Positions 47,885 to 50,618 of a DNA stretch of 64,000 nucleotides are shown one piece after another. Positions within the stretch are counted from its first letter, which is position 1; each line of letters opens with the position of its first letter. The stretch is from an uncultured Lachnospiraceae bacterium (GTDB lineage Bacteria; Bacillota; Clostridia; Lachnospirales; Lachnospiraceae). Below the pieces are notes generated by a model, which worked only from the letters and a program-made list of their open reading frames with translations, searched no databases and was not told the origin of the DNA. Made by a program: the position numbers and the translations under genes. The stretch is taken from assembly GCA_902781655.1 (NCBI GenBank), contig CACZJZ010000008.1:1-64000 (forward strand), read 5' to 3'.

Positions 47885-49183
47885 TCATTTCACCTCCGCG
47901 TTCCCATACGGATATCCCTCGTTGAAATTGCGCGCGTTTTCCATCGTGACCGCAGCGATGGCCTGCAGCGCCTCTCTGGTGAAGAAAGCCTGATGAGAGG
48001 TCAGAATCAGCTGTGGGAAGCTGAGCAGTCTCGCCGTGATGTCATTGGTCAGCGGCTCATCAGAGCGATCCGTATAGACATTATCATCCTCTCCCTCGTA
48101 GACATCGAGCGCCACCGCATGGAACTTGCCCTGCTTCATGGCCGCGATCAGCGCCTCCGTGTCGATAAGGCCGCCGCGCGAGGTGTTCACCAGCATGCAC
48201 GAATCCTTCATCAGAGAGATCGCCTTCCCGTCGATCAGGTGGTAGGTTCCGTTCTCTCCCATGATAAGCGGCGCATGCAGCGAGATCAGATCCGCCTTCC
48301 GGAGCAGTTCCTCCTTTGAGACATATGTCAGCAGTCCTTCCTCCTCCAGCGCCTTGTTCGGATAGGCGTCCCAGCCGAGCACGGTCATGCCATACCCCTT
48401 GCAGATGCGCGCCATGCACTGCCCGATCCGGCCCGTCCCGACGATACCGGCGACCTTGTTGTGCAGGTCCAGCCCCAGCAGCCCGCTGAGGGCAAAATTA
48501 TTGTCCTTGACCTTGAAATATGCCTTGTGAATCCGGCGGTTCGCCGCCTGAAGGATCGTCATCGCGTGTTCCGCCACCGCATACGGAGAATAAGCCGGTA
48601 CGCGCAGCACAGTGATGCCATATTCCTCCGCCGCCTTCAGATCCACATTGTTAAAGCCCGCGCAGCGCAGCAAAATCAGTTTCACGCCGCCGTTGTGCAG
48701 TGTCTCAATGACTTCCCGCGGCGCCTCGTCGTTCACAAAGATACATACCGCGTCGAATCCGTTTGCGAGATGCGCCGTCTCGGGCGTCAGCCGGCTCGTA
48801 AAATACCGGATATCTGTATTGTAGGTACCCTCTCCCTTGTCCTTGGACAGCTCGCTGAAGAACAGTCTGTCGTAATCCTTCGTGCCGAAGAACGCCACCT
48901 TCAGAACGGACACCTTCCGATCCTTCGGCGCGATCTCCTTCAGGACCTCCTGCAGCTTTGCCGCCGCAGTTTCCTCGTCCGGACCCTCCACGGTAAACTT
49001 CAGAAGGGTGCCCTTCACAGCCTGAAGCTTCAGAATCTGCAGAACATTGCTTCCGCCTGCCGTCTCTCCATTCGCCTCCAGCGTCACGGCACTTTTGAAT
49101 TCCGTGCATGCCTGCGCAATCAGCGCAGCCGGGCGTGCATGAATGCCGAGTGCATTCTTGACATGATATTCAAAGGTTTTCAT
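47885..49183 (-). CDS. HPr phosphocarrier domain fused to D-lactate dehydrogenase
   Basis: A 432-residue fusion. Residues 1-90 are a complete HPr domain: His15 lies in GIHARPAALIAQ, the site phosphorylated by PTS enzyme I. Position 46, Ser in Gram-positive HPr, is Asn here (GGSNVLQIL), with Ser at 45. From about residue 95 (KVAFFGTKDYDRLFF) a full D-lactate dehydrogenase follows: NAD motif GIVGTGRIGQ (G249, G251, G254), Asp272 for NAD, and catalytic Arg336, Glu365 and His397 with the exact 29 and 32 residue spacing of known enzymes. It should reduce pyruvate to D-lactate. The start has GGAGGAGC upstream; a longer frame to 49345 has none. It follows the DUF438 gene by 37 bases. That the HPr domain controls the enzyme is inferred. 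Confidence 0.93.
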   Translation of the reverse strand: MKTFEYHVKNALGIHARPAALIAQACTEFKSAVTLEANGETAGGSNVLQILKLQAVKGTLLKFTVEGPDEETAAAKLQEVLKEIAPKDRKVSVLKVAFFGTKDYDRLFFSELSKDKGEGTYNTDIRYFTSRLTPETAHLANGFDAVCIFVNDEAPREVIETLHNGGVKLILLRCAGFNNVDLKAAEEYGITVLRVPAYSPYAVAEHAMTILQAANRRIHKAYFKVKDNNFALSGLLGLDLHNKVAGIVGTGRIGQCMARICKGYGMTVLGWDAYPNKALEEEGLLTYVSKEELLRKADLISLHAPLIMGENGTYHLIDGKAISLMKDSCMLVNTSRGGLIDTEALIAAMKQGKFHAVALDVYEGEDDNVYTDRSDEPLTNDITARLLSFPQLILTSHQAFFTREALQAIAAVTMENARNFNEGYPYGNAEVK

Positions 49184-49220: not shown

Positions 49221-50618
49221 TCAATCTTCGAAGCTCTGCGGCGCGGTTTTTGCAAAATGCTCCTTCGCCGCGTCCATATTCTGGACGTACTCCATCGAAC
49301 CGACGAAAGCGCCCTGTTTGTCCCGAACCGCCATGTAGCGGACAAGATAAGTATGCCCGTTTTTCTCAGTCCAGACGTCCACGCTGTCCCGTTTCCCTTC
49401 CTTGAACGAGGTAAGGATCATCCGGACCATCTCCTCCACCTTGGGCGGATGGCAATAGTATACCTCACGGTCGAGCGCCTGCAGCGGGCGTTTGAACGCC
49501 TTTGGCCCCTCCCCGCGGTTGAAATAACGGTTGATATCGTCCGCGTCGATGAACGAAATCTCGCCTGGAATCGTATCAAGCATCGCCGTCAGCTGCGATT
49601 TTGTCAGATGTCCGGACGGAAATACCACCTCATCGTCCCCCGCTGCGCCGCCGTCCGCCTGTGTCTGCGCCCCCGGCTTCCGCTCCTTCCGCGGCGCGGC
49701 GGCCTGTCCGGGCTGCTCCATGTCCCGGTCAGTCTGACCAGACTGCGTTCCCTTCCATTCCGGCGAATCCTTCCAGACCGGCGCATTCTCCGCAAGCTTC
49801 CACAGGGGCTGTCTCCCGATCAGGCACGGCTCATAATCCTGCAGGTCCATCGCCATCTGCACCCACTCCGCACGAGTCAGATTCTGAATGCAGATCGGAT
49901 ACAGGATGTTTCTCTCCTTGTAGATCATCTCCTGAACCCGGGTGATCAGCTTCAGCGCCCGGTCCTTCCACTGCTCATCTGTCAGGACAGTTCCTGTACC
50001 GCCGCTGAGATTGCGGATTTCCGCCCGGATCTCGTCATCGACGCCCCACATCACATCCGACGGACCGGATACATCATGCTTCGATTTGAGAAGCGGATAG
50101 ATCAGATCTCCCTTTGCGGCATAGTGGAGACTGACCGCACGCAGGACACGGAACTCCTTTTTGGCCGCATCCATCGAAGCCTCCCCCGGCACCGCGTTCT
50201 CCAGCAGTTCCTTTACTCTGCCTGCCTCCTCCTCAATGGCGTCGTCCTCCTTCATGAAGACACTGAGCGGATGCCCCGGGATCGCAGCCAGCTTCTGCAG
50301 CTGGCTTTTCGCCAGCTCACGCATATTTCTTCCCATCCCCGGCGCCTGCCGCTCCGCAGCTGTGGATACCGCGATCTTCTCCTCGTTCGTCGCTCCATGG
50401 AAGAGAGCCGAGTGCACATCGCACAGCTTCTGCACCTTCTGATAGGACACTCCGGCCTGCATCAGCGCCTGCTCCGCTTTCATGATCTCCGATGCATCCA
50501 CATCCTTGAAATGTGCGACAAAATCCTTCCTGACCTGCTCCAGGTCCTCTCCTGCCGACAGCCGCTCCACATAACTTCTGAGCAGCTCCTGCCTCTCCTC
50601 ATCTCTGTTCTGAATCAT
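49221..50618 (-). CDS. DUF438, hemerythrin-like and PAS sensor protein
   Basis: A soluble protein of 465 residues. Residues 8-75 are a DUF438 domain (SYVERLSAGEDLEQVRKDF). Residues 85-240 resemble a hemerythrin HHE helical bundle with His/Glu metal-ligand candidates (GHPLSVFMKEDD, LHYAAKGDLIYPLL, KERNILYPI). A Gln/Ala/Pro-rich linker leads to a C-terminal PAS-like domain (ISFIDADDINRYFNRGEG and VRYMAVRDKQGAF). Such proteins sense oxygen, nitric oxide or redox state; no output domain is visible. It is first in an operon with the HPr-LDH fusion. Confidence 0.88.
   Translation of the reverse strand: MIQNRDEERQELLRSYVERLSAGEDLEQVRKDFVAHFKDVDASEIMKAEQALMQAGVSYQKVQKLCDVHSALFHGATNEEKIAVSTAAERQAPGMGRNMRELAKSQLQKLAAIPGHPLSVFMKEDDAIEEEAGRVKELLENAVPGEASMDAAKKEFRVLRAVSLHYAAKGDLIYPLLKSKHDVSGPSDVMWGVDDEIRAEIRNLSGGTGTVLTDEQWKDRALKLITRVQEMIYKERNILYPICIQNLTRAEWVQMAMDLQDYEPCLIGRQPLWKLAENAPVWKDSPEWKGTQSGQTDRDMEQPGQAAAPRKERKPGAQTQADGGAAGDDEVVFPSGHLTKSQLTAMLDTIPGEISFIDADDINRYFNRGEGPKAFKRPLQALDREVYYCHPPKVEEMVRMILTSFKEGKRDSVDVWTEKNGHTYLVRYMAVRDKQGAFVGSMEYVQNMDAAKEHFAKTAPQSFED

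Follow-up and report, generated by a model that had tools for sequence, protein, structure and literature searches.

On the reverse strand of the window, by which we mean the whole stretch of 64,000 nucleotides that was analysed, an open reading frame of 432 amino acids runs from an ATG at 49183 to a stop at 47885 in a single frame with zero internal stops, and AGGAGAGGAGG lies directly upstream of the ATG. Its product consists, in order, of an HPr domain (PF00381), a short linker and an LdhA-type D-2-hydroxyacid dehydrogenase, and the features used below are these:

47885..49183, reverse strand: HPr-D-lactate dehydrogenase fusion gene, 432 amino acids, ATG start; 88 distinct full-length copies including the window's
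48932..49183, reverse strand: HPr domain, residues 1-84, placed by PF00381, solved HPr proteins (best E 3.2e-12) and the predicted fold
49130..49147, reverse strand: HPr active-site loop G13-I14-H15-A16-R17-P18, with G13, H15, A16, R17 and P18 invariant in 88 of 88
49046..49048, reverse strand: Asn46 codon, at the position of the HprK target Ser46 in the alignment with HPr
48905..48931, reverse strand: linker, residues 85-93, the most variable of the three stretches (mean entropy 2.12 bits)
47888..48904, reverse strand: LdhA-type D-lactate dehydrogenase half, residues 94-432, placed by Pfam and relatives
48422..48439, reverse strand: NAD-binding motif GTGRIG, residues 249-254, read from the sequence
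48176..48178, reverse strand: Arg336 codon, residue invariant in 88 of 88
48089..48091, reverse strand: Glu365 codon, residue invariant in 88 of 88
47993..47995, reverse strand: His397 codon, residue invariant in 88 of 88

The N-terminal part scored 74.9 bits against the Pfam PTS-HPr model (PF00381, cut-off 23) over residues 3-82 and 74.1 against NCBIfam TIGR01003 PTS_HPr_family, over the cut-off of 47.9. The rest scored 106.2 bits against 2-Hacid_dh (PF00389, cut-off 24.6) over residues 121-427 and 155.5 bits against 2-Hacid_dh_C (PF02826, cut-off 25.1) over residues 210-399, and it has the NAD motif and the catalytic Arg, Glu and His of LdhA-type enzymes, which we take to be Arg336, Glu365 and His397. 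Three NCBIfam D-lactate dehydrogenase models scored below their cut-offs (NF009127, 180.5 against 579; NF006374, 174.5 against 356; NF000492 VanH, 207.6 against 540), and we read these as models of other dehydrogenase subgroups. Leu94 of the fusion lies approximately where unfused dehydrogenases have their first Met. Hence the original prediction of an HPr fused in frame to a complete D-lactate dehydrogenase is borne out by the Pfam domains, the exact coordinates and the 88 copies, and His15, Arg17, Asn46, Arg336, Glu365, His397 and GTGRIG all lie where it had placed them. The AlphaFold2 model of the fusion (mean pLDDT 83.7, pTM 0.66, 77 sequences) has the HPr fold: at residues 2-83 strands and helices follow each other as in HPr (block pLDDT 85-94 over 1-80). 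The linker comes next and then, at 94-99, the first strand of the dehydrogenase, about 10 residues tying the HPr domain to this N-terminal strand. Because the model contains weak stretches (218-235 and 363-368) and superposes on the solved D-lactate dehydrogenases, its best fold matches, with an rmsd of 6-9 Å, we take it for the fold and not for the domain interface. None of the 50 listed fold matches is an HPr chain, the matches following the dehydrogenase half.

A contig scan gave 293 relatives from 320 candidate stretches, and the best 80 of the 293, which were kept, all match residues 1 to 431 or 432 with 72-98% identity in the best segment. Together with the window's copy and 12 fusions from a family search, and less 5 duplicates, they make 88 distinct full-length proteins of 430-436 amino acids. 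Their records are labelled Clostridia, Erysipelotrichia and Negativicutes, many come with a rumen or gut sample as label, and isolates such as Mitsuokella multacida are among them; strain records with the fusion belong to Mitsuokella, Selenomonas montiformis, Bilifractor, Lactimicrobium, Faecalibacillus and Floccifex. An assembly or sequencing artefact joining two genes was also considered, and its probability is practically negligible given 88 distinct copies in many assemblies, isolates included. The original prediction had suggested mapping the spread of the HPr plus 2-Hacid_dh architecture, and the 88 fusions in three classes by label now supply that map; the view that the fusion has no characterised counterpart holds in so far as we found none described, but the protein is no one-off, since it belongs to a widely kept family. 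Searches of an open-access library, judged by titles and the starts of abstracts, gave no HPr-dehydrogenase fusion, most subscription papers and the architecture databases lying outside this search, and the architecture may well be present in databases without a study.

Within the window's own family, 174 of 397 genomes drawn had a match at E ≤1e-60; among the matches listed 13 were full-length fusions, and the remaining ones begin no earlier than query residue 51. This draw included one further genome of the window's own genus, which gave no match at 1e-60. A draw of 391 genomes from the class gave a full-length match in the window's own genome only, with the other rows beginning at residue 73 or later, and a draw from the phylum gave full-length matches at E ≤1e-120 in 3 of 398 genomes. 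With so few full-length matches in the three draws and none in the congener, the distribution of the gene, judged from sequence matches, is patchy. A pattern search of viral contigs gave no match. Plasmid records matched at 1e-60 in 61 cases, and the 10 of these that were listed begin at query residue 80 or later and are therefore unfused enzymes.

A quick maximum-likelihood tree (LG+G4) was built from the dehydrogenase halves of 88 fused and 45 unfused proteins; the program warned of long end branches, mostly of unfused rows and also of L135 and L136. The fused and unfused states need one change on this tree, on a branch with SH-aLRT 100, and the sister rows of the fused clade (L137-L139) are unfused enzymes from the window's own family. 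All 45 unfused rows come from the window's own class, and on the tree so made a single fusion event is needed. If the classes are taken from the titles of the records (57 Clostridia, 12 Erysipelotrichia, 6 Negativicutes and one odd label), the tree needs at least 8 changes of class, and the class labels of MAGs may be wrong in places; with 14 isolate- or strain-named records, whose class was assigned by us, at least 3 changes are needed, where the minimum possible for three classes is 2. Because of these class changes, the strain records and the 77-78% identity between the window's fusion and that of Mitsuokella, the fusion has probably spread between classes by transfer, a reading that the data fit and do not prove.

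The surroundings of the gene are not conserved: each neighbour cluster was common to at most 8 of the 71 loci that could be parsed (10 of 81 were dropped, and the window was entered with a longer antisense frame in place of its DUF438 gene). By tblastn, the window's nearest neighbours (DUF438, CmpB-like and DNA alkylation repair) were each found at only one of the 80 loci, namely the near-identical L001, with at least 1500 bases upstream available in 73 of the 80. In the window itself a DUF438-hemerythrin-PAS gene occupies 49221-50618 on the reverse strand, 37 bases upstream of the fusion on the same strand, and is possibly co-transcribed with it. Upstream of the unfused dehydrogenases, no separate HPr was found in 45 loci with the pattern [GS].HARP within 1500 bases or up to the end of the locus. 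A Rex-like site (10 of 14 letters) occurred upstream of the 88 fusions at a frequency of 0.44, compared with 0.14 in mononucleotide shuffles, and a cre-like site (9 of 10 letters) at 0.07 compared with 0.00; a full Rex-like site was found upstream of none of the 88.

Seven of the 84 HPr positions are invariant in the 88 fusions (G13, H15, A16, R17, P18, A23 and G67), and five of the seven fall in the six-residue active-site loop 13-18, for which a hand calculation gives a random chance of approximately 4 in a million. All 88 thus have the active-site His15 and Arg17 of the HPr family. In the NAD motif G249, T250, G251, I253 and G254 are invariant in an alignment of 77 of the 81 fusions then collected. 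Median dN/dS was 0.056 for the HPr half and 0.029 for the dehydrogenase half over 81 close pairs with dS <2, the 81 being what remained of 98 close, non-independent pairs after 17 with dS of at least 2 were left out, and many of the HPr dS values are near saturation. Both halves are therefore under purifying selection, and the invariance of the active-site residues in 88 of 88 together with the low dN/dS in each half agrees with the earlier impression that both look functional. The HPr half is nevertheless the faster-evolving of the two (mean entropy over the 88 fusions 1.38 bits, against 0.60 bits for the dehydrogenase half), as might be seen if it were a structural or vestigial N-terminal extension without phosphate chemistry; this we consider very improbable, because His15-Ala-Arg-Pro is kept in every copy, because of the HPr-half dN/dS, and because the tree of fused and unfused enzymes needs no loss of the domain.

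In the window's own genome (2.76 Mb, 99.5% complete) there is a single match to Enzyme I, with ptsH adjoining and one PTS_EIIC match just upstream, giving three in a row, and by eye the C-terminal part of the PTS_EIIC frame resembles a glucose-type IIA domain. Enzyme I was also found in 46 of the 50 other fused genomes searched (50 of the 80), and the four without a match may be incomplete assemblies. In the family draw 13 of 13 fused genomes had Enzyme I compared with 348 of 394 overall, a difference that is not significant; among the matches listed, the enzyme is unfused and Enzyme I gave no match in genomes G427, G430, G484, G501, G520 and G559. Each of the 38 fused genomes searched for HPr frames (38 of the 50) has an HPr frame of 431-528 residues, which we took as the fusion, and at least one separate, shorter HPr frame.

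How the fused HPr differs from separate HPr proteins was compared in 26 genomes that have both the fusion and an HPr selected as adjoining Enzyme I; this set consists of 26 fetched regions less the unparsed L196, plus the ptsH of the window's own genome. A further comparison with standalone HPr covered the 26 of 33 loci that could be parsed. Within the 26 genomes the two HPr forms are similarly constrained: mean entropy was 1.19 bits for the fused HPr and 1.27 bits for the one linked to Enzyme I, and mean pairwise identity was 57% and 52%, respectively. Within one genome the two forms were on average 32% identical. The fusion shares the fold, His15, Arg17 and the loop with solved HPr (PtsH) proteins 1y4y, 3le1 and 1ptf. 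Unlike free-standing HPr, its domain is attached, has Asn for the HprK target Ser46, and has A20, Q24, C26, A42, N46 and A55 where the Enzyme I-linked proteins have mostly G, K, A, mixed residues, K or S, and V. At a set of presumed Enzyme I and IIA contact positions, conservation in fused HPr was not significantly in excess of that in Enzyme I-linked HPr (permutation p 0.25). From the similar constraint, the low identity and the shifted fixed residues, the fused domain seems to be functional and to make some contacts that are particular to it. The same comparison bears on the idea that the fused domain is an alternative PTS carrier which passes phosphate to IIA, the dehydrogenase being attached for co-expression or for regulation of the carrier, for example through NADH binding. 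An intact active site, and Enzyme I together with the IIA-like permease part (by eye) in the window's own genome, would allow this, but a separate HPr is present in all 38 fused genomes searched, and the low identity to the Enzyme I-linked HPr and the shifted fixed residues in the 26 genomes also speak against it, so we regard such a role as improbable.

Residue 46 is N in 79, D in 7, E in 1 and S in 1 of the 88 fusions, and the three phmmer alignments displayed place Asn46 on Ser46 of solved HPr chains. The fusion thus lacks the Ser46 of HprK/CcpA-regulated Gram-positive HPr, and the original prediction that it has no HprK site is upheld by this alignment and by the single Ser among the 88. 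Its further point about the Ser46/CcpA route is right in that Asn46 excludes the route, but the residue is little telling, as 20 of the 26 Enzyme I-linked HPr proteins of fused genomes also lack Ser46 and only 6 have it. In the window's own genome, which has HprK, the ptsH beside Enzyme I has Lys46 and other HPr-like proteins have Ser46, so in this genome the two phosphorylation sites are divided between different proteins. One of these proteins (L082, G000:C20:14700-14942) has Asp for His15, keeps Ser46 and lies about 4 kb from HprK (L118, G000:C20:10160-10666), like Crh; in another paralogue (L083, G000:C3:106937-107176) Ser46 is present and the loop with His15 is changed (HLGP).

For the dehydrogenase half, the best sequence and fold matches are solved D-lactate dehydrogenases of the LdhA type, namely 5z1z (E. 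coli), 4cuj (Salmonella), 5z20 (P. aeruginosa) and 5z21 (F. nucleatum), with 43-45% identity over this half. They share the fusion's catalytic residues and are chains of 329-358 residues in which HPr is absent, in contrast to the fusion. The fused enzymes also differ from their 45 unfused relatives by short insertions near residues 116-119 and 308-310. The three-residue insertion near 308-310 (48254-48262, reverse strand) is found in most fused dehydrogenases and in 0 of the 45 unfused ones, and Gly364 (48092-48094, reverse strand), which adjoins Glu365 in the fused enzymes, is Glu in 42 of the 45. Gly364 and the 308-310 insertion could be changes tied to regulation. Three D-lactate dehydrogenases among such relatives are tetrameric and allosteric, two of the three are enhanced by fructose 1,6-bisphosphate, and above pH 7.5 cooperativity is positive in two and negative in one, according to one report (PMC4230899). 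By analogy with the nearest solved relatives, the fused enzyme would use pyruvate as substrate and would be an allosteric tetramer. A search of the window's own genome for the L-lactate/malate dehydrogenase family (PF00056) gave no match, and the D-2-hydroxyacid dehydrogenase that comes next after that of the fusion is 35% identical to it; hence this genome may have the fusion as its main lactate dehydrogenase.

Besides the fusion, the locus might also yield a dehydrogenase on its own from an internal start at the junction, since the window has a GTG at codon 91 with AAGGA upstream. However, a start codon with a ribosome-site-like stretch is found at the junction in only 5 of the 88 fusions, so the locus most likely gives a single protein, and the chance of a second product is very slight indeed.

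We propose that the fusion is a PTS-linked D-lactate dehydrogenase whose activity would be altered when Enzyme I phosphorylates His15, a proposal that we consider evenly poised between right and wrong; the phosphorylation of His15 by Enzyme I, its coupling to catalysis and the direction of the effect are what we infer. In this model PEP would charge Enzyme I, from which phosphate would pass to His15 of the fused HPr domain, and the phosphorylation state of the domain would track the PEP:pyruvate ratio and the PTS sugar flux and would alter the activity of the attached LdhA-type enzyme. The unphosphorylated fusion, with sugar flowing and pyruvate plentiful, would be the likelier active form, because unphosphorylated HPr is what is expected while sugar flows. 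Moreover, an allosteric tetramer of the D-lactate dehydrogenase kind would be a built-in switch that an attached HPr domain could throw, as the nearest solved relatives include tetrameric, cooperative enzymes (PMC4230899). In its fullest form, as a covalent PTS switch in which Enzyme I would write the PEP:pyruvate state into the enzyme via His15, giving each subunit a sugar-flux sensor that would have spread between classes as one gene, the proposal is put forward tentatively and at a little under an even chance.

A serious rival to phosphorylation as a switch, although we judge it unlikely, is that the HPr domain would bring the dehydrogenase to Enzyme I and so capture the pyruvate that Enzyme I sets free whenever PEP charges it, with kinetics that may ignore the His15 phosphate. 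Docking of this kind would conserve the active-site loop all the same; the expected substrate of the dehydrogenase is pyruvate, the product of Enzyme I, and reducing it at once would pull the reversible Enzyme I reaction forward. One study (PMC5290146) describes the Enzyme I reaction as measurably reversible in E. coli, from pyruvate to PEP. Since this reversal takes place in cells, taking pyruvate away could make a difference, and docking is plausible. Docking alone, however, needs no invariant His15. It also counts against docking that free pyruvate diffuses fast and that pyruvate kinase supplies more of it. The sequence data favour neither the phosphorylation switch nor docking over the other.

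It is known that PTS proteins control metabolism through contacts with other proteins. Crh with methylglyoxal synthase, and HPr with pyruvate kinase or glycogen phosphorylase, are cases in which the HPr-type protein is separate, and they resemble the role proposed here in that an HPr-type protein tunes an enzyme of carbon metabolism. FruB-type PTS fusions (IIA-HPr, model NF008319), like the present fusion, have HPr as one domain in a larger protein, but there the partner is another PTS domain, whereas here it is a fermentation enzyme. As a variant of PTS control the fusion is real and widespread; we found no description of it, and its regulatory step is predicted. If the phosphorylation switch is true, one protein would link sugar uptake directly to lactate output via a carrier inside a central fermentation enzyme, and through it the sugar-uptake machinery could directly steer lactate production. 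Lactate output in the rumen and gut matters for cross-feeding and acidosis, and the carriers of the fusion include cultured isolates and many gut or rumen records; the window's own bacterium probably also lives in one of these habitats.

An HPr-like domain was also seen at the start of another kind of long frame. The genome to which the Mitsuokella jalaludinii fusion locus L058 belongs, G817, has such a domain (GIHARVA) at the beginning of a frame of 569 amino acids (L209, G817:C10:39000-42200, from 1153 on the forward strand) with, by eye, a PAS domain, a sigma-54 activator and a helix-turn-helix end, which lies a short way upstream of ptsH and Enzyme I; G791, G786 and G805 also have HPr matches, in frames of 567-583 amino acids.
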